Assembly (NCBI RefSeq): GCF_002998435.1
Contig: NZ_CP027231.1
Coordinates: forward strand, 1,839,001-1,903,000
Origin: Bacteroides zoogleoformans
GTDB taxonomy: Bacteria > Bacteroidota > Bacteroidia > Bacteroidales > Bacteroidaceae
Length of the DNA stretch: 64,000 nucleotides
Reading direction: 5' to 3'
Part shown: piece by piece, positions 26,139 to 36,231 of the stretch
Layout: the number at the start of each line of letters is the position of its first letter
Numbering within the stretch: the first letter of the stretch is position 1
Notes under the pieces: model-generated
Told to the model about the DNA's origin: nothing
What the model saw: the letters and a program-made list of their open reading frames with translations, nothing else
The model's database searches: none
Program-made: the position numbers and the translations under genes

Positions 26139-29100
26139 ATGAGAAAGCCACTTATTATCTTTTTATTGTGTGAAATGTTCGTCTCGACCGCATTTGCCGT
26201 GCGAGACAGTCTGCGCGGATTTCAGTACGCGTCCGTTCAATCGCCCGACGGAAAGGAATGGGAGTCGCCCGAACGGCTGGCGCTGAACAAGGAACAGCCT
26301 CGCGCTTATTTCTTTTCCTTTGCCGACGTCAGCTCCGCACGGAAAGTATTGCCCGAGCATAGCGCTTATTGGATGAGCCTCAACGGTGATTGGAAATTCA
26401 AATGGGTGCCCAATCCCGATGAACGACCGAAAGACTTCCAACGTACGGACTACGATGTGTCGGCTTGGGACGATATCTACGTGCCTTCGAGCTGGAACAT
26501 CTACGGCATCCGGAAAGACGGAACTCAGAAATACGGAACACCCATCTACGTGAACCAGCCCGTCATCTTCCAGCATAAGGTGGCGGTGGACGACTGGCGC
26601 GGAGGAGTGATGCGCACGCCGCCTGCCCACTGGACTACCTACAAGCATCGCAACGAAGTGGGGTCTTACCGCCGCGATTTCACGTTGCCCGCCGGATGGA
26701 ACGGCCGCGAAGTCTTCATCGACTTCGACGGGGTGGACTCTTTCTTTTATCTCTGGATAAACGGACAATACGTCGGCTTCTCCAAGAACTCGCGAAACAC
26801 GGCGAGCTTCAACATCACTCCCTACCTCGTAACCGGAAAGAACACCGTGGCCGTGGCTGTTTATCGCAGTTCGGACGCTTCTTTCCTCGAGTCGCAAGAC
26901 ATGTTCCGCCTGCCGGGCATCTTCCGCACGGTGGCGCTTACCTCGGTTCCTAAACTGCATGTGCGCGATTTGGTGGCTACACCCGACCTAAACTCCTCTT
27001 TTGAGGAAGGTACGCTCGCCATCAAGGCCGACATCCGCAACCTCGACAAGAAAGAGGCTAAAGGATGCAGCATGGTCTATTCGCTCTATGCCGACAAGCT
27101 TTATTCAGACGAGAATACGCCGGTGACAGGCGCCACAGCCGTTGCTGCCGTGATGCCTGTGGGTAAAGACGGCATCGTCACCAGCCAAACCACACTGACG
27201 CTGCCCAGACCTTTGCTGTGGTCGGCAGAGGCTCCTCACCGCTACACGCTGGTGGGCGAACTGAAAGACAGGAAAGGGCGCACCATAGAAACCGTTTCTG
27301 CCTATGTGGGATTCCGTAAGGTGGAAATCAAGGACACCCCTGCCTCGGAAGACGAGTTCGGACTGGCCGGACGTTATTACTACATCAACGGAAAGACCGT
27401 GAAACTGAAGGGCGTGAACCGCCACGAGACCAATCCCGCACTGGGACATGCCATCACCCGCGAACAGATGGAGCGGGAAGTGATGCTGATGAAACGCGCC
27501 AACATCAACCACGTGCGCAACTCGCACTATCCCGACGACCCTTACTGGTACTATCTTTGCGACAAGTACGGCATCTATCTCGAAGACGAGGCCAATCTGG
27601 AGTCGCACGAATATTATTACGGCAAAGCGTCCCTGTCTCACCCCATAGAGTGGGAAAAAGCGCATGTGGCACGCGTGATGGAAATGGTACACAGTCATGT
27701 CAACCATCCCTCCATCGTCATTTGGTCGCTGGGCAACGAGGCCGGGCCGGGCAAGAACTTCGTGACTGCCTACAATGCACTGAAAGCTTTCGACCTCTCT
27801 CGGCCGGTGCAATACGAGCGCAACAACGACATCGTGGACATGGGCTCCAATCAATATCCGTCCATCGCTTGGACGCGCGAGGCCGTGAAAGGGAAGTACG
27901 GCATCAAATATCCTTTCCACATCTCGGAGTATGCACACTCCATGGGCAATGCCGTGGGCAATCTGGTGGATTATTGGGAAGCCATTGAGTCGACCAACTT
28001 CTTCTGCGGAGGAGCCATCTGGGACTGGGTAGACCAAGCCATGTATAACTACACCCCCGAAGGCAAACGATACTTGGCCTACGGCGGCGACTTCGGCGAC
28101 ACGCCCAACGACGGACAGTTCGTGATGAACGGCATCGTGTTTGCCGACCTCGAACCCAAACCTCAGTACTATGAAGTGAAGAAGGTGTATCAGCACATCG
28201 CCGTGCAAGCCAAAGACATACGCAAGGGCAGCTTCGAAATCTTCAATAAATACTACTTCAAAGACTTGAACGACTATGAAGTGCGCTGGTCGCTCTACGA
28301 GAACGGTAGCGAAGTGCAAAGCGGAACACTGCCCGCCGCCCGTATCGCCCCGCGCAGCCGGGCGCTCGTACAGATTCCTTATAATTACGAGGCGTTGAAG
28401 CCCGCTGCCGAGTATTTCGTGAAGATGCAGTTCTGCCTGAAAGACAAGAAACCTTGGGCGGAAAAGGGCTATGCAACGGCCGAAGAGCAATTCCTCCTGA
28501 AGCCCGCGAGCAACCTGCCGGGCATCGCCACCCTGACCGATAATGCCGGAAACCTGCTGATAGACAAAACGGACGCACGCTTCACCGACATCCGTGGCAA
28601 GGAGTTCGACGCACGCTTCGACATGCAGACCGGAACCATCTATAGCCTGAAATACAAAGGCGAGACGCTTATAGCCGATGGAAACGGGCCGAAGCTCGAC
28701 GCCTTCCGTGCTTTCGTCAACAACGACAACTGGGTATATGCCGGATGGTTCGAAAACGGTCTGCACAACTTGCGGCACAAAGCCGTGCGCGCCACTACCC
28801 TGCAACGTCCCGACGGCGCCGTGGTACTGGCCTTCACTGTAGAGTCGCAAGCGCCGAACGCCGCACGCATTCTTGGCGGAACATCCAGCGGCAGGAACAC
28901 AATTGAGGAACTGACCGACCGCGCATTCGGCGAGAACGACTTCAAGTTCACGACCAATCAGGTATGGACGGTCTATCGCGACGGCTCGATAGAGCTGCAG
29001 GCAGGCATCACGTCCAACCGTCCCAAGCTGATATTGCCGCGCTTGGGCTACGTGATGAAACTTCCGCAGAAGTACGATAACTTCACCTACTACGGACGCG

Positions 29101-30164
29101 GGCCCGTCGAGAACTACCCCGACCGCAAAACAGGACAGTTCATCGAACTCTATCGCAGCACGGTGGAAAAAGAGTTCGCCAACTTCCCCAAGCCGCAGGA
29201 TATGGCCAATCATGAAGAGGTGCGCTGGTGTGCGTTGACCGATGCCGCAGGCGCAGGGGCACAATTCATTGCCACCGGCGGCAAGATGTCCGTGGCGCCG
29301 CTGCAACACACGGCTGTCGAAATGACGCTGGCAGGACATCCCTATCAGCTTCCGGAGACGACAGGCACTTATCTGCACCTCGACCTCGGCGTCACAGGCT
29401 TGGGCGGCAACAGTTGCGGACAAGGCGGACCGCTGGAGCCGGACAGAGTACTGGCAGGCCCGCATTCGTTCGGCTTCATCATCCGTCCGGCAGCAAAGAA
29501 CCTGACGGAAGCGGCACAGGTAAGCGGCAACGGCACCCTCCCCTTGAGCATCGTGCGCAACGAGGCGGGCGAGGTGAGCTTCTTGTCCTTGAACCCCGAA
29601 GCCGAAATCTGCTACACCTTGGGGAAAGAGAAGAAAGCAAGAACCTACAACGCCCCCATCCCCATGCGCGAAGGCGGCAGTGTGACGGCATGGTTCAAGT
29701 CCACCCCCGACATCAAAGCGTCGCAGACCTTCGGCAAGATAGAGAAAGTGCAAGCCGAGGTAATAAACGCCAGCAGTGAGGAGACCGATGGCGAAGAGGC
29801 CACGAACCTGACCGACGGGGACGCCGCGACCATCTGGCACACCATGTACTCCGTCACCCTGGCCAAGTATCCGCATTGGGTGGATTTAGACGCTAAAGAC
29901 GTGAAACTCGTCAAAAGCATCACTTACCTGCCCCGACAGGACAGCGACAACGGCAACGTGAAGGACTACCGCATCCAGGTGAGCACCGACGGCAAGACTT
30001 GGAGCGACCCCGTGGCCGAAGGCAGCTTCGAGAGAAACCGGAAAGAGAAAACCGTGCGCTTCGACAAACCCGTCAAGGCGCGCTACATCCGCTTCACCGC
30101 CTTGAGCGAGCAACAAGGACATGATTATGCGTCGGGAGCCGAAATAGGCATCTTGGCCGAATAA
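26139..30164 (+). CDS. Glycoside hydrolase family 2 beta-galactosidase with C-terminal discoidin-like domain
   Basis: Large exported LacZ-type enzyme of 1341 aa. Signal peptide about 1-21; sugar-binding jelly roll about 60-290; Ig-like domain to about 420; TIM barrel with acid/base Glu534 (WSLGNEAG) and nucleophile Glu597 (HISEYAHSMGN); a second Ig-like part and the LacZ small-chain domain to about 1120. The C-terminal 140 residues form an F5/8 type C (CBM32-like) domain (NLTDGDAATIWHT, YIRFTALS), a likely carbohydrate-binding module. Last gene of the utilisation locus, followed by a terminator. Its long form (E. coli LacZ is 1023 aa) is due to the added C-terminal module. Confidence 0.93.
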   Translation: MRKPLIIFLLCEMFVSTAFAVRDSLRGFQYASVQSPDGKEWESPERLALNKEQPRAYFFSFADVSSARKVLPEHSAYWMSLNGDWKFKWVPNPDERPKDFQRTDYDVSAWDDIYVPSSWNIYGIRKDGTQKYGTPIYVNQPVIFQHKVAVDDWRGGVMRTPPAHWTTYKHRNEVGSYRRDFTLPAGWNGREVFIDFDGVDSFFYLWINGQYVGFSKNSRNTASFNITPYLVTGKNTVAVAVYRSSDASFLESQDMFRLPGIFRTVALTSVPKLHVRDLVATPDLNSSFEEGTLAIKADIRNLDKKEAKGCSMVYSLYADKLYSDENTPVTGATAVAAVMPVGKDGIVTSQTTLTLPRPLLWSAEAPHRYTLVGELKDRKGRTIETVSAYVGFRKVEIKDTPASEDEFGLAGRYYYINGKTVKLKGVNRHETNPALGHAITREQMEREVMLMKRANINHVRNSHYPDDPYWYYLCDKYGIYLEDEANLESHEYYYGKASLSHPIEWEKAHVARVMEMVHSHVNHPSIVIWSLGNEAGPGKNFVTAYNALKAFDLSRPVQYERNNDIVDMGSNQYPSIAWTREAVKGKYGIKYPFHISEYAHSMGNAVGNLVDYWEAIESTNFFCGGAIWDWVDQAMYNYTPEGKRYLAYGGDFGDTPNDGQFVMNGIVFADLEPKPQYYEVKKVYQHIAVQAKDIRKGSFEIFNKYYFKDLNDYEVRWSLYENGSEVQSGTLPAARIAPRSRALVQIPYNYEALKPAAEYFVKMQFCLKDKKPWAEKGYATAEEQFLLKPASNLPGIATLTDNAGNLLIDKTDARFTDIRGKEFDARFDMQTGTIYSLKYKGETLIADGNGPKLDAFRAFVNNDNWVYAGWFENGLHNLRHKAVRATTLQRPDGAVVLAFTVESQAPNAARILGGTSSGRNTIEELTDRAFGENDFKFTTNQVWTVYRDGSIELQAGITSNRPKLILPRLGYVMKLPQKYDNFTYYGRGPVENYPDRKTGQFIELYRSTVEKEFANFPKPQDMANHEEVRWCALTDAAGAGAQFIATGGKMSVAPLQHTAVEMTLAGHPYQLPETTGTYLHLDLGVTGLGGNSCGQGGPLEPDRVLAGPHSFGFIIRPAAKNLTEAAQVSGNGTLPLSIVRNEAGEVSFLSLNPEAEICYTLGKEKKARTYNAPIPMREGGSVTAWFKSTPDIKASQTFGKIEKVQAEVINASSEETDGEEATNLTDGDAATIWHTMYSVTLAKYPHWVDLDAKDVKLVKSITYLPRQDSDNGNVKDYRIQVSTDGKTWSDPVAEGSFERNRKEKTVRFDKPVKARYIRFTALSEQQGHDYASGAEIGILAE

Positions 30165-30412: not shown

Positions 30413-31708
30413 CTACACCAGGCCGAATGCCGCCTTCACCTTATCCACATAGTCCAGCTTCTCCCAAGTGAAGAGTTCCACTTCCACCTCCTTGTCGCCC
30501 TCGTAGCGGCTCTGGAAGCGTTTGACGATGGTTTGCGGTTCGCGCCCCATGTGCCCGTAGGCGGCAGTTTCCTGATAGATGGGATTGCGTAGCTTGAGGC
30601 GGTCTTCGATAGCCTTCGGACGGAGGTCGAACAGTTCGTCTATTTTCCGGGCAATCTCACCGTCGCTCATGTGGACGTGGCTGCGTCCGTAGGTATCCAC
30701 GAAGATGTTGATGGGGCGTGCCACACCGATGGCGTAAGACACTTGCACCAACATCTCGTCCGCCACGCCGGCAGCCACCAGGTTCTTGGCAATGTGCCGT
30801 GCCGCGTACGCCGCGCTGCGATCCACCTTCGAGGGGTCTTTCCCCGAGAAAGCGCCGCCGCCGTGAGCACCCTTACCCCCATACGTGTCCACGATGATTT
30901 TGCGCCCCGTCAGCCCGGTATCTCCGTGAGGCCCGCCGATGACAAACTTCCCGGTAGGATTGACGTGGTACGTGATGCGGTCATTGAACAGAGCCAGCAC
31001 TTTCTCGGCACGGATGGAAGCGATGACGCGCGGCATCAGCACCTCGATGACGTCCTTGCGGATAACGGCCAGCATCTCTTCGTCGGCTTTCAGCTGTGCG
31101 GCTTCGCTGCCGTCGGCGGGGCTGACAAAGTCGTCATGCTGCGTGGAGACCACAATGGTGTCGATGCGGACGGGTGTCCCGTTGTCGTCATACTCTATGG
31201 TCACTTGGCTCTTGGCGTCGGGGCGGAGGTAGGTCATCACCCTGCCTTCGCGGCGGATGTCGGCCAGCACTTGCAGGATGCGGTGTGCCAGGTCGAGCGA
31301 GAGCGGCATGTAATTCTCCGTTTCGTTGGTGGCATAGCCGAACATCATTCCCTGGTCTCCGGCGCCCTGCTCCATGGGGTCTTGCCTTTCCACGCCGCGG
31401 TTGATGTCGGGGCTTTGCTCATGGATGGCGCTCAGCACGCCGCACGAGTTGCTCTCGAACATGTATTCGCCTTTGGTGTATCCAATCTTCTTAATCACTT
31501 CGCGTGCGATGAGTTGGAGGTCAACGTACGCTTTTGTCTTCACCTCTCCGGCCAGCACCACCTGTCCGGTAGTGACCAGCGTTTCGCAAGCTACTTTCGA
31601 GTTGGGGTCGTAAGCCAACAGTTTGTCAAGCACAGCGTCCGATATCTGATCGGCCACTTTGTCGGGATGTCCTTCTGACACCGATTCGGATGTGAATAAA
31701 TAGCCCAT
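30413..31708 (-). CDS. metK: S-adenosylmethionine synthase
   Basis: Makes S-adenosylmethionine from methionine and ATP in the cytosol. The 431-aa protein has the N-terminal [18 protein letters not shown] motif, the central [15 protein letters not shown]-binding motif and the [19 protein letters not shown] loop. Slightly longer than E. coli MetK (384 aa), as usual in Bacteroidales. It is a single gene with a leader of about 160 nt containing a SAM-II-type aptamer, suggesting feedback control by its own product. Confidence 0.97.
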
Positions 31709-31811
31709 TTCTTCAAAGATAATTGATGGTTAATAAAACAGATGTTTCAATGAAGAAGCGGAAAGGGAGATGAGCAGAGACGCGTCCGGCACGAAGCCGT
31801 CAGAAAAGGAT

Positions 31812-31862
31812 GTGTTTTTAGCATTTTTTTCTGTGGTTGCAAGCTACTCAAATCTTTCCACA
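31812..31862 (-). ncRNA. SAM-II (SAM_alpha)-type riboswitch aptamer in the metK leader
   Basis: Minus-strand RNA reads: P1 arm UGUGG, loop containing GAUUUGA, then GUAGC-UUGCAA, closing arm CCACA, a short A-rich linker, then AAAUGCUAAAAAC. P1 is UGUGG/CCACA. The loop bases UAGC can pair with GCUA near the 3' end, giving the H-type pseudoknot of SAM-II. GAUUU, CUUGCA and GCUAAAAA are the conserved segments of that class as I recall it. The putative -7 box (31886-31879) would start transcription about 10 nt before the aptamer. The aptamer ends about 100 nt before the metK ATG; the expression platform is not clear. Confidence 0.8.
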
Positions 31863-31878
31863 TTTCATTTTGTGGGGG

Positions 31879-31886
31879 CAAAAGTA
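31879..31886 (-). promoter_or_regulatory. metK -7 box
   Basis: On the minus strand TACTTTTG matches TAnnTTTG. Start of transcription is expected near 31872, just before the riboswitch aptamer. Confidence 0.55.
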
Positions 31887-31985
31887 ATGGTTTATTCCGG
31901 AACTCCCGCCTTTTTCGCACAGTATTAACATTCTATAAACAACCATACATCTCCATCGGCCTACTCTGCCCGTCTTCTTATCTCT

Positions 31986-32013
31986 CCCCCTCCCCCATAG
32001 GGAGGGGAGGGGG
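31986..32013 (-). terminator. GC-rich stem-loop after the glycosyltransferase operon
   Basis: cccctccc (31987-31994) pairs with gggagggg (32000-32007) with a short loop, extended by further C/G runs. It follows the last glycosyltransferase gene by about 10 bp. There is no clear T-run, so termination is inferred from position. Confidence 0.4.
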
Positions 32014-32021
32014 GAAAGGCT

Positions 32022-32936
32022 TTAGACACCGAAGTCGCCTTTCAGCGTACGTTTGATTCTTCGCAACGCTTTTGCCCAAAAGAAGTTGGTGCGACGATAG
32101 TAGCGGGCAAAGATGCGCCGTGCCTCGGCGTTTTCTGTCACTGGGCTGATTTTTACCACCGGAAGCGGCTCCGGCCAAAGCGAGGCGTCGTACAGGCCGC
32201 CGCCTCCACAATGGGTGCCGCTGCCGTCGAACCCTTTGTTCTGCACCAGCGATCTGCCGGTATTCAACGAAAGGATATCCGCCAGGAACAGGCTGGCGTT
32301 CCAGCGGATGGCCCATGAGTTGTTTTTCCCCTCGGTCTGCCGGCGTAGCATGCGGGTGAAGCCGTACGTGCCGTCGAAGTCGAAGGTGCGGGTCAGGCCT
32401 CTGTCTTCGAGTTGCTTCAGCAAGGCTTTTCCGTCGGGGTTGAAGTGTTGCCAGGCGCGCTTCCACGTGGCCCAGCCCCAGCTTCCCGTCCATTTAATGA
32501 GGAAAGTGGCGGGAAGGGAGGGGTCTTGGGTGAAGTCGCAGGCTTGGATATGCCCCACGCGCGGCTCATCTTCGTAGGCGCAGAGGGCATCGTTCATGAA
32601 GCGCAGAAAGCAGGGGGATACCATCAGGTCGTCTTCCAGCACAATGACCCTCCCGTGGCGGTTCACTTGTTCGGTGACGCCGGCTATCACGTTGGCCGCC
32701 AATCCTTGGTTCTCGGTGTGCTCTATCACCTCGACGGAGCGGAAGCCGGCAAGGGTGTGCAGGTAGCGACGCACTTCGTCCACCGCCGCTTGGTCGGCGG
32801 TGTTGCGAGCGGCGTCGGAATAGACGAACAGACGGCTGCGGGCGGCCTCTTCATTAGTCAGCAGGCTCTTTATCAACTGCCGGGTATGGGCAGGACGGTT
32901 GTAAGTGAAGAGCAGGATAGGGGCGTAATCTTTCAT
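32022..32936 (-). CDS. Glycosyltransferase, GT2-like
   Basis: Protein of 304 aa with a GT-A nucleotide-sugar-binding N-terminal half: LLFTYNRP at the start, a DxD-like VLEDDL near residue 98, and a GSWGWATWKRAW segment seen in sugar-transferase families of O-antigen and capsule clusters. Last gene of the four-gene minus-strand operon, 30 bp after the preceding gene. It should transfer one sugar during surface glycan synthesis; donor and acceptor are not identifiable. Confidence 0.8.
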   Translation of the reverse strand: MKDYAPILLFTYNRPAHTRQLIKSLLTNEEAARSRLFVYSDAARNTADQAAVDEVRRYLHTLAGFRSVEVIEHTENQGLAANVIAGVTEQVNRHGRVIVLEDDLMVSPCFLRFMNDALCAYEDEPRVGHIQACDFTQDPSLPATFLIKWTGSWGWATWKRAWQHFNPDGKALLKQLEDRGLTRTFDFDGTYGFTRMLRRQTEGKNNSWAIRWNASLFLADILSLNTGRSLVQNKGFDGSGTHCGGGGLYDASLWPEPLPVVKISPVTENAEARRIFARYYRRTNFFWAKALRRIKRTLKGDFGV

Positions 32937-32966
32937 GACTTTGTTTCTTTACTTGGTTCTAAATTA

Positions 32967-33878
32967 TCATATATACCATGTACCGCATCGTTTGTTCAGC
33001 TTGCGATAGCCGATGACCTTGCCTGTCCGGCCGAATACGCTTGCCGTGATGCGGAGATAGGCGACGGCATCTTTCAGATTTCCTTGCAGCAATGCTTTAA
33101 ACGTTTTCTTGATGCCCGCCGCCACTCCATAGGCAAATGCCTTGGGAAAAGAGTATTGCACGTTAGCATACTCGGACAACAGATAAACTTCCTCCGAATA
33201 TAGGAAGGCTTTGCGAGCCACGGGCCGGTATTCCCGGTCGTGGCATCCTTGTACGTAAGGCGAATACCCTATCCGGTAACCGCAACGGTGTAAACGGTTG
33301 ACGTAGTCCACGTCTTCGCCATAGTGTCGGAAGAGGGGGCAGAATCCGCCCACTTGCTTCAATACGGAAACAGGAATAAACCAGAATGCCGCATTGACGA
33401 AAGGCACTTCTATGGGAGGACAAAGGGACTTGTCTTTCGCACGATAGGTCTTCAACTCCGCCGAAGGGCTTAGTCCTGCATAACCGGCGAAACCTTTCTC
33501 CAACTTATCGCCCGCACCGGTCAGATGGGTGGGCGACAAGATGCCATATTGGGGGTATTTACCGCTAAGCGCGCTCAATGTGCCGAGCGTTTCGGCATCT
33601 ATCCACGCGTCTTGGTTCAGTAGGAAAACAGCCTCGTAGCCCTCTTCCAACGCCATTCTCATACCGAGGTTGTTGGCACGGCCGAAGCCGAGGTTCTCCT
33701 GGCTCTGGATGAGGCGGACTTCCGGATAGCGGCTTTCGATGAGCTGTACGGTACGATCTTGCGAGGCGTTGTCTATCACCACCACATCCGCTTGCAGCGA
33801 AGATTGGCGCAGACTGCCCAGGCAACGGTCCAGCCAACGCTCGAAGTTATAGGCTGCTATAATGGTCAGTATTTTCAT
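32967..33878 (-). CDS. Family 2 glycosyltransferase (rhamnosyltransferase-like)
   Basis: Protein of 303 aa with the GT2 fold: VVIDNASQDRTVQL and ENLGFGRANNLGM near residues 33-70, LLNQDAW as the DxD-type motif near 89, and EDVDYVNRLHRCGYRI near 196-211. The NLGFGRANN signature is common in rhamnosyltransferase-like enzymes. The start at 33878 was chosen because the protein begins MKILTIIAAYN like other GT2 enzymes and overlaps the upstream stop by 4 bp (ATGA coupling). The open frame extends upstream to 34127, but that part lies inside the upstream gene. Confidence 0.88.
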   Translation of the reverse strand: MKILTIIAAYNFERWLDRCLGSLRQSSLQADVVVIDNASQDRTVQLIESRYPEVRLIQSQENLGFGRANNLGMRMALEEGYEAVFLLNQDAWIDAETLGTLSALSGKYPQYGILSPTHLTGAGDKLEKGFAGYAGLSPSAELKTYRAKDKSLCPPIEVPFVNAAFWFIPVSVLKQVGGFCPLFRHYGEDVDYVNRLHRCGYRIGYSPYVQGCHDREYRPVARKAFLYSEEVYLLSEYANVQYSFPKAFAYGVAAGIKKTFKALLQGNLKDAVAYLRITASVFGRTGKVIGYRKLNKRCGTWYI

Positions 33879-34789
33879 GAGGTTTCGGCTTTTCGTTCTG
33901 TTTCGATGGTTTCTATGAGGGCGTCCGACTTTCCGCTCACCACTTTCCGGCAGAACATCTTGCCCGACAGCTTCAGTGCAGGCAGGTCTTCCGGAGTCAT
34001 GGTCTTGATGGATTGGCCGTATACGATATAATGCAGGGGCGTCAGTGCGTGGAGTCCGGCGTATCTGCCTTCGTACAGCAAGGCGCGGGCGGCAAAGGGA
34101 GAGTTGAACACAAGGGTCTGTACGCATAGCTCGCTGGGGACGAAGCTTGTCTTGAAGTAGCGGGTCATCTCCTTTTCAGTGCAGAGCTTCTCGTAGACAT
34201 AGCGGGCGCAAGGCAGGGTGATGGCCCAATAGTCGGAGCCGAAAAACACATCCGCTTCTTTGCCGCCAAGCTTTACGAAGGGGCGCTTCCTGAACGGAAG
34301 CAACTGCATCAGGTGGCGTGAGGCTACGATGAGCTTGTTCCGCAACCACCGACTTCCGATGTTCAGGTCGCGGAAGAAGTGGTAGTAGATGATTTTGGCT
34401 ATCTGCTGCTTGTCGGCAGAGCGGGTCAGGTTCATTGCCACGATGAACTCCGTCTCCTTGTGCCCGTCAAAGTAGCTGTGTATCTCGGTGTTGGGCCACA
34501 GAGGATAGTCTTGCCCGCTGAGGCAGACGACGCGGCCATAAGCGATGCCGCTGTGCAGCACGGCGGACAGCAGTTCCTTCTGATATTCCACCTGCCCCCA
34601 GCCTCCCCAGCTCACCCGATGCCGGGGCACAAAGGTCGTCTTGTCTTTCAGCAACTCCTTGAAAGGGCGGATGTCCGCATTCCGGTCGATGTGTATGTAG
34701 AAATCGGCGTCACCGGCCAGGGCATCTACCAGACGACGTAAGTGCGGCGCGTCTTTATAGGCGGATATGATGTAGGCGATGCGGCTCAT
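33875..34789 (-). CDS. Core-2/I-branching-type glycosyltransferase (GT14, Branch domain)
   Basis: Protein of 304 aa resembling beta-1,6-N-acetylglucosaminyltransferases of the Branch family: IAYIISAYKDAPHLRRLV at the start, FYIHIDRNAD near 30, RVSWGGWGQVEYQKELL near 58-75, LSGQDYPLWP near 92. The start at 34789 gives the family N-terminus and a 4-bp overlap with the flippase gene. Frame extends upstream but only as a shadow of the flippase. In bacteria this family occurs in exopolysaccharide and capsule clusters. Confidence 0.88.
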   Translation of the reverse strand: MSRIAYIISAYKDAPHLRRLVDALAGDADFYIHIDRNADIRPFKELLKDKTTFVPRHRVSWGGWGQVEYQKELLSAVLHSGIAYGRVVCLSGQDYPLWPNTEIHSYFDGHKETEFIVAMNLTRSADKQQIAKIIYYHFFRDLNIGSRWLRNKLIVASRHLMQLLPFRKRPFVKLGGKEADVFFGSDYWAITLPCARYVYEKLCTEKEMTRYFKTSFVPSELCVQTLVFNSPFAARALLYEGRYAGLHALTPLHYIVYGQSIKTMTPEDLPALKLSGKMFCRKVVSGKSDALIETIETERKAETS

Positions 34790-36231
34790 GGCTTCTTCTT
34801 TTTTAAGAGGAACTCGACGCTCTCTTTGAAGATGACGGATTGCAGCTTCCATAAGGTCAGGGCATAGAGGCCGGCCACAAACACCACTTTCGTAATCAGG
34901 CTCAGGTAGAGGTTTTCGATGGGGCGGGCGATGTAACAGGCGGCTGTGACGAGGGCGGCGGATAAGAGCAAATAAGGAGAGAGATCTTTCAGCATATCGC
35001 CGGCCTTCAACCCGATTTCTCTTCTCACAAACCCGAACCAGACAAACAGCCAGCCGATGTTGATGCCAACGAAGACGCGCAACATCCATTCCAGTCCGAA
35101 GGGATACATGGCGCATACGGCCACCAGTTGCAATACACTCAGGCAGATGGTATTCCACATGTAGATGGAAGAGTGTCCGCGGCTGATAACCAGGTTCGAG
35201 AATAAGTTTATAACAGGAATGAATGCGCCCCAGATGCAGAGAATCTGCATGATGTAAACGCTGCCGAGCCATTTCTCGGTAACGGCAATCACAATCAGCT
35301 CTCTTGCTATCAGGCTTAATCCGAACATGGCGGGAAAGGAGACGAAGGCCGTGAAGCGGAGCAGCTTACGGAACACAGCCAGTTGACGGGGCTTGTCGTC
35401 GGTCACGCGGGTGAAGACGGGTTGCGCAATGCCGTTTATCATGCCAGTGATGGTGTTGTGTCCCATTCCGTTCCATTTGTTTGCCTGCGTGAAGTTGCCG
35501 ACTTCCCGTTCGGAATAGAACCTGCCCAGCAGGACGGATAACAGGTTGTTGTTGATGATTGTGAAGACGTTCGTTACAATCATCTTGCTGCTGAATCCTA
35601 TCATCTCCCTGATGGGAGTGAAGTCTAACTGAAGTGTGGGGTGCCAACGGGAGAAGTAGAAGTTGAGTATCGTCACCATCGTTACAAAGGCGATGGATTG
35701 CAAGGCGATGCCCCAATAAGCGAATCCGTTGGCGGCCAGTATGATTCCGACGACTCCCGAGACGCACAGCGCGGAAAGAGAGACAACGGTGGTTTCTTTG
35801 ATCTTCAGGTTCCTGAAGAGGTAGGCACGCGGTGCAATGCTCAGGCTGGAAATGACAAAACCCAGGAATGAAAGCCGGGAAAGGGGAACCAATTCCGGTG
35901 TCTTGTAGAAGTCCGCAATGAGCGGGGCGGCGAAGAAGAGCAGCACATAAAGCGTGGTGCCGCACAGGGTGCTGAACCAGAACACGGCGTTATAATCCTT
36001 GTGAGAGACCTCCTTCCGGTTGGTCAGCGCCGAGATGAAACCTCCCTCCTGCAAGGCGGCCGCAATGGCGGAGAAAATGGTGAGCATGCCCACCATGCCG
36101 TAGTCCGAAACATCCAGCAGACGGGCCAGGACAATCCCGAAGACCAGATTCAGCAACTGTTGCATCCCGTTGCTGAAGCCTCCCCACAACAGTCCTTTGG
36201 CTGTCTTCTCTTTGAGTGATGTCTCGTTCAT
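34786..36231 (-). CDS. Polysaccharide flippase, MOP superfamily (Wzx/WzxC-like)
   Basis: Integral membrane protein of 481 aa with about 12-14 helices (Polysacc_synt-type). The N-terminal KEKTAKGLLWGGFSNGMQQLLNLVFGIVLARLL segment is typical of lipopolysaccharide/teichuronic-type flippases. Such proteins move lipid-linked glycans across the inner membrane. First gene of the four-gene operon with three glycosyltransferases. No polymerase, initiating sugar transferase or nucleotide-sugar synthesis gene is present in the window, so the cluster is an accessory or satellite one. Confidence 0.9.
   Translation of the reverse strand: MNETSLKEKTAKGLLWGGFSNGMQQLLNLVFGIVLARLLDVSDYGMVGMLTIFSAIAAALQEGGFISALTNRKEVSHKDYNAVFWFSTLCGTTLYVLLFFAAPLIADFYKTPELVPLSRLSFLGFVISSLSIAPRAYLFRNLKIKETTVVSLSALCVSGVVGIILAANGFAYWGIALQSIAFVTMVTILNFYFSRWHPTLQLDFTPIREMIGFSSKMIVTNVFTIINNNLLSVLLGRFYSEREVGNFTQANKWNGMGHNTITGMINGIAQPVFTRVTDDKPRQLAVFRKLLRFTAFVSFPAMFGLSLIARELIVIAVTEKWLGSVYIMQILCIWGAFIPVINLFSNLVISRGHSSIYMWNTICLSVLQLVAVCAMYPFGLEWMLRVFVGINIGWLFVWFGFVRREIGLKAGDMLKDLSPYLLLSAALVTAACYIARPIENLYLSLITKVVFVAGLYALTLWKLQSVIFKESVEFLLKKKKP

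Follow-up and report, generated by a model that had tools for sequence, protein, structure and literature searches.

Introduction

The metA element, now the SAM-II riboswitch, was placed in the Bacteroides group in sections of the report of Corbino 2005, where Bacteroides thetaiotaomicron appears in the alignment legend and putative terminators are noted for many representatives. Passages of Barrick and Breaker 2007 also record SAM-II in Bacteroidetes, and describe the class as most often terminator-associated in alpha- and betaproteobacteria, and Table 1 of Weinberg 2010 carries an entry 'SAM-II long loops, Bacteroidetes, marine' that corresponds to RF01726. Members from Bacteroides have been in print since 2005 (Corbino 2005; Weinberg 2010) and neither the class nor the host is therefore new; the first-pass annotation of the locus studied here, which took SAM-II to be described mostly from Alphaproteobacteria, is not supported on this point. 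Given these earlier reports of SAM-II in Bacteroidetes, the switch that we describe is a typical representative of an established class.

The action of riboswitches in Bacteroidota is little described in those parts of the literature that we searched. An RNA-seq survey of riboswitch termination includes data for B. thetaiotaomicron, and its main text does not use the term SAM-II. We found no description of the expression platform of Bacteroidetes SAM-II in the main-text passages searched (PMC2864571, PMC6061858, PMC12121620, PMC2258182, PMC1273637, PMC10043782, PMC7366714). Here we analyse the leader of metK in a 64 kb stretch of DNA from Bacteroides zoogleoformans, the whole of which is called the window, together with the corresponding leaders of related genomes.

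The metK leader and its aptamer

The minus-strand leader of metK contains all of the parts that the first-pass annotation had picked out, namely P1 (UGUGG/CCACA), GAUUU, CUUGCA and a 3′ segment AAAUGCUAAAAAC (Table 1). The assignment to SAM-II is borne out by a full-length match to RF01726 (the SAM-II 'long loop' family), which scored 62.0 bits in cmscan and was the sole Rfam match above cut-off in the 64 kb. The family actually named, RF00521, was the wrong one: membership is rejected by a score of 14 bits against a gathering cut-off of 36, and RF01726 is the correct model. On the strength of this match the window RNA is a SAM-II riboswitch of the RF01726 type, and would as such bind SAM. The genome has one RF01726 match above cut-off; a second candidate (L002, 18.9 bits against a cut-off of 44) was taken as a chance match.

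Table 1. Features of the metK leader and gene, in window coordinates.
Feature	Position	Strand	Basis or remark
SAM-II (long loop) aptamer, RF01726	31808..31867	-	62 bits against a gathering score of 44; E 1.6e-9 over the entire 64 kb
P1 5′ strand UGUGG	31858..31862	-	sequence and RF01726 match
P1 3′ strand CCACA	31832..31836	-	sequence, RF01726 match and covariation
GAUUU loop	31854..31850	-	sequence
CUUGCA	31843..31838	-	sequence
AUGCUAAA, pseudoknot P2 3′ strand, with AUG inside	31817..31824	-	sequence
Anti-aptamer strand	31758..31787	-	predicted fold; duplex with aptamer 5′ half
Predicted helices of the alternative fold	31861..31854/31765..31758 (8 bp); 31850..31844/31777..31771 (7 bp); 31841..31839/31783..31781; 31836..31835/31787..31786	-	
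UUUUCUG	31801..31807	-	predicted partner in the alternative fold: CAGAAAA 31833..31827
UUCUUCA	31751..31757	-	can pair with UGAAGAA 31715..31709 beside the metK AUG
GCUCAU, within the anti-aptamer strand	31770..31775	-	can pair with AUGGGC 31708..31703 (metK start codon)
-7 type promoter box TACTTTTG (TAnnTTTG)	31879..31886	-	sequence fit; would put the mRNA 5′ end directly ahead of the aptamer
metK, S-adenosylmethionine synthetase, 431 aa	30413..31708	-	ORF; PF00438, PF02772, PF02773

For comparison we fetched 228 loci, a sample weighted to high scores: of 266 matching genomes in the order draw, it takes in the top-listed part. In accord with the proposal that metK is the target, whose product in the window has all three S-AdoMet_synt Pfam domains, 225 of these loci have metK downstream; the exceptions are L125, L228 and L002, the sub-threshold match in the window's own genome. 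An aptamer upstream of metK and on the same strand could be parsed in 218 of the 225, and each of the seven loci outside the parse pattern (L087, L111, L175, L216, L223, L225 and L227) shows, on inspection by eye, a core resembling the aptamer ahead of metK. The folding analyses below cover 213 of the 218 leaders, those with linkers shorter than 40 or longer than 220 nt (L055, L057, L110, L124 and L168) being left out.

P1 covaries. Of the 218 leaders, 126 fit a single register; in these its two outer pairs are paired in 126/126 (G-C 122 and A-T 4 for one; T-A 115, A-T 9, C-G 1 and G-C 1 for the other), and the two inner pairs are invariant, being fixed by the parse pattern. For P2a, in the same leaders and with both strands (UUGCA and GCUAA) part of the parse pattern, one of the four pairs counted is C-G in 45 and T-A in 35 and is paired at a frequency of 0.75 against 0.61 expected, and three are close to expectation (observed/expected 0.90/0.90, 0.71/0.70 and 0.63/0.57). 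The pairing of a loop UAGC with GCUA, which had been read as the pseudoknot, is possible in the window sequence itself; as a conserved pairing it was rejected, UAGC being found in the loop of 13 of the 213 parsed leaders (GAGTAGC in 12, GAATAGC in one) in a count for which GCUAA was a prerequisite of the parse. The partner of UGAGUAG is located farther downstream, in the linker, in the window and its close relatives. The AUG within the pseudoknot strand is replaced by UUG in L007, L018, L021 and L031 and by AAG in L076, with the rest of the aptamer core kept.

Upstream of the aptamer, TACTTTTG matches TAnnTTTG, which we take to be the -7 promoter motif. Of the 218 leaders, 192 carry this motif in the stretch of about 60 nt that precedes the aptamer. 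This agrees with the earlier placement of the aptamer towards the 5′ end of the mRNA as predicted, and it is thus likely that the transcript opens with the aptamer as its first structure. The distance from GCUAA to the metK AUG, given before as about 100 nt, is 109 nt in the window and has a median of 80.5 nt (5-95% range 59-139) in the 218 leaders. An outlier is L057 (genome G425), where the aptamer lies 6 nt from the metK start codon, no TAnnTTTG was found upstream, and folding of the aptamer would cover the start directly.

The surroundings of metK in the window comprise polysaccharide genes upstream (32022-36231, minus strand: two family 2 glycosyltransferases and a flippase-like polysaccharide biosynthesis protein) and a convergent gene for a GH2 beta-galactosidase (26139-30164, plus strand), whose 1341 aa include an F5/8 type C domain at the C-terminal end. 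Between a glycosyltransferase gene and metK there is a 21-base palindrome-like repeat, CTCCCCTCCCTATGGGGGAGG (31989-32009, minus strand), of which the genome holds 11 copies at one mismatch or fewer, with none in a backward control; it is perhaps a small intergenic repeat family.

Distribution among related genomes

Matches to RF01726 above cut-off were found in 263 of 393 genomes drawn from the order, in 48 of 61 drawn from the family and in 41 of 296 drawn from the phylum. The matching genomes of the phylum draw that lie outside the window's genus belong to the same class, bar one weak match (31.9 bits) in another class. The best 80 of at least 594 metK relatives supplied a second, named set. 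In it 45 loci show the SAM-II pattern, another 2 match it loosely, and 44 have a linker in range; these species may overlap with the genomes of the fetched loci. Within these best 80 of at least 594, the fitting loci include Tannerella forsythia, Porphyromonas loveana, Petrimonas and several Flavobacterium, and several Prevotella loci, P. ruminicola among them, showed no fit to the pattern; one Prevotella MAG (L250) does fit. The closest named metK among the matches listed is that of a Mediterranea massiliensis MAG (92%).

Twenty genomes without an RF01726 match were searched for metK, and by eye no SAM-II core was seen in the leaders inspected. Four loci of the same family (L312, L313, L314 and L316) have metK leaders in which no SAM-II core is visible and TAnnTTTG stands near the gene, so inspected, and both the aptamer and the long leader look absent from them. 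In L310, L311 and L317 a reading frame seems, again by eye, to extend close to metK instead.

A linker strand complementary to the aptamer 5′ half

Folding the window leader to minimum energy, with an energy model that includes neither the pseudoknot nor SAM, leaves the aptamer unformed and its 5′ half paired with the linker at 31787..31758. The leader (31880..31680) folds better than its shuffles (z -3.04), and the duplex of aptamer 5′ half and linker, at -24.0 kcal/mol, was matched by 9 of 1000 shuffled linkers. The same arrangement recurs with altered letters, as UGAGUAG/CUGCUCA in the window, UGAGUAG/CUACUCA in L043, GAGCA/UGCUC in L054 and a UUGGG/CCCAA version in L049, L050 and L061; the letters of UUUUCUG/CAGAAAA also recur, by eye, in the relative L043.

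Across the 213 leaders the duplex between 5′ half and linker has a mean energy of -17.6 kcal/mol against -13.4 with shuffled linkers (p<=0.05 in 52% of leaders with 60 shuffles), and a reversed-linker control gave a mean z of +0.2. With 100 shuffles the own linker beats the shuffle mean in 199 of 213 leaders, or 155 of 166 after thinning, and reaches p<=0.05 in 105/213, so that about half of the leaders miss significance singly. Closely similar proportions come from the named set, where 40 of 44 beat the shuffle mean and 22 of 44 reach p<=0.05. The linker, moreover, fits its own aptamer. Foreign aptamers, taken in this test from another loop class, pair as well as the own one in a mean fraction of 0.218 (0.5 expected), and 35 of 41 loop classes fall below 0.5; after thinning the fraction is 0.213, with 144 of 166 leaders favouring their own aptamer. 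Exact complements of at least 7 nt to the own loop segment are present in 38/213 leaders as compared with 3.2% for foreign linkers, an effect that is modest when tested by class (28/41, p 0.014). Pairing between the aptamer 3′ half and the linker was rejected as a candidate, being weak (p<=0.05 in 24/213 leaders, against 105 for the 5′ half).

Taken as a set, the linkers hold a strand that pairs with the aptamer, excludes its formation and suits its own aptamer better than those of other leaders, which cannot be said of each leader. In relatives the strand stops short of the AUG by a median of 32 nt; in the window the gap to the metK start is about 48 nt. This strand complementary to the aptamer 5′ half is, to judge from predicted folds, likely to be the expression platform.

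Predicted pairing at the metK start region

The two short linker segments listed in Table 1 as able to pair at the metK start, GCUCAU with AUGGGC and UUCUUCA with UGAAGAA, form a predicted composite duplex of -14.6 kcal/mol in the window. When a slightly shorter stretch was taken, the best duplex between linker and start was matched by 34 of 1000 shuffles; in that stretch, which lacks the G, this duplex still covers the start codon, via another short helix.

The mean computed cost of opening the metK start over the 213 leaders is 4.63 kcal/mol with the aptamer free to pair and 6.43 without the aptamer, a rise of 1.80 that compares with 0.56 for shuffled upstream linkers. Shuffling of the whole linker gives a rise of 0.03, as against 1.75 for own linkers, and the cost without the aptamer is itself no higher than chance (own 6.63, shuffled 6.96); if the last 22 nt are kept, the own aptamer-less cost exceeds that of its shuffle in 61% of the 213. 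The rise in the window, 4.06, was matched by 0 of 150 shuffles, its aptamer-less cost of 9.0 by 18 of 150 and its low cost in the presence of the aptamer by 21 of 150; of the opening-cost measures, only the difference stands out from the shuffles here. The difference exceeds 0.5 in 25 of the 44 leaders of the named set and is negative in several named leaders, for example those of Tenacibaculum and Flavobacterium notoginsengisoli. Linker and start show a slight fit, at 0.409 against 0.5. The anti-aptamer strand holds 36% of those linker bases that pair with the start, against 33% by coverage, and none of 12 family relatives tested singly has a start duplex at p<0.1. Start-codon occlusion is, as a general rule, a weak proposition.

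A model of the switch and its alternatives

From the aptamer, its link to metK and an anti-aptamer strand that fits its own aptamer, all observed here, we infer the binding of SAM, the direction of control and the output. When SAM is absent, the aptamer 5′ half (P1 5′ strand, L1 and UUGCA) would pair with the complementary linker strand; this alternative pairing would break the aptamer, tie up the anti-aptamer strand and leave the metK start region more open. When SAM is bound, the aptamer would retain its 5′ half and the anti-aptamer strand would be set free. We consider it fairly probable that the element is an anti-aptamer switch of this kind, lowering metK when SAM is plentiful, whatever its output. 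The output that we favour, tentatively, is a lowering of translation initiation, in which the freed strand would pair across the start of metK; GCUCAU and UUCUUCA would serve for this in the window.

The main alternative output, which we regard as unlikely, is Rho-dependent termination. It shares the aptamer and the anti-aptamer strand with the preferred model, the freed C-rich, G-poor strand acting as a Rho loading site that is hidden when SAM is absent. The composition of the metK SAM-II leaders, which were analysed on their own, is consistent with such a site, with 24.0% C and 12.7% G in the upstream linker, C exceeding G in 93% of the 213, and a C/G skew of +0.45 inside the anti-aptamer strand against +0.19 outside, and intrinsic terminators are too rare to serve in its place. 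However, an excess of C over G inside the strand is to be expected in any case, because the strand is complementary to a G-rich aptamer strand.

Intrinsic transcription termination, as described in parts of the literature for many alphaproteobacterial members of SAM-II, is very improbable here. A hairpin followed by a T run at -6, -8 or -10 kcal/mol or lower occurs in 14, 7 and 6 of the 213 leaders respectively (6.6, 3.3 and 2.8%, against 3.6, 1.7 and 0.9% in shuffles), which is a mild excess of about twofold, yet rare. At -8 kcal/mol 206 of 213 leaders have no such site, so terminators were rejected as the general output, and a search of 31600..32050 found 0 terminator-like sites in the window, just as the first-pass annotation had remarked for the interval between aptamer and ATG.

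It is equally hard to credit that the pseudoknot AUG starts a regulatory upstream ORF that is translated only when SAM is absent. Of the 218 leaders, 201 have AUG at this codon and 216 have NUG; its context is A-rich, and in the window it opens an ORF of 25 codons ending at 31747. Against this, its UG belongs to the aptamer consensus, the ORFs range from 3 to 335 codons and their peptides are dissimilar, and among 211 leaders none of the three frames is favoured (stop densities of 0.027, 0.023 and 0.033; median first stops at 48, 58 and 50 nt). Stop density that is alike in all three frames gives no sign of selection on the peptide, and a coding ORF was therefore rejected. Least credible of all is that the aptamer has decayed and regulates nothing, given its 62 bits, the covariation of P1 and its retention beside metK, which is seen in many genomes of this order and extends to further orders of the class.

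Shine-Dalgarno sites are weak in Bacteroidota. In its widest form, our model would have the Bacteroidales and their Flavobacterium-type relatives share one largely terminator-free SAM-II platform, a near reverse complement of the whole aptamer 5′ half, which on release by SAM would turn metK off, whether by covering the start region or through the loading of Rho, in organisms that rely little on Shine-Dalgarno sites. We hold this extension to be possible, with confidence short of even. A metK switch that is present in two-thirds of the genomes drawn from the order (263 of 393), together with a strand fitted to its own aptamer, makes for a clear and easily tested model.

Comparison with known SAM-II and SAM-V riboswitches

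The window element resembles RF01726 along its full length, with P1, L1, UUGCA, the A-rich strand and AUGCUAAA in common, and no difference in the aptamer was seen. As far as the sources searched extend, the anti-aptamer strand is undescribed, yet it is textbook in kind. With RF00521 (SAM-II/metA, mainly alphaproteobacterial), as portrayed in sections of the published accounts, the element shares the pseudoknot class and a likely promoter immediately ahead of P1. Members of that group stand in front of several methionine and SAM genes, often with intrinsic terminators, whereas here the gene is metK in 225/228 loci and terminators are rare; it is plausible that the output differs from that of alphaproteobacterial SAM-II, as had been suggested at the outset. 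SAM-V is absent from the Rfam matches of the window. It has a SAM-II-like pseudoknot, as is predicted for the present element, and passages of the literature propose a translational output for it; there, however, the SAM-V aptamer covers the Shine-Dalgarno site, whereas the aptamer described here ends 109 nt before the start codon.
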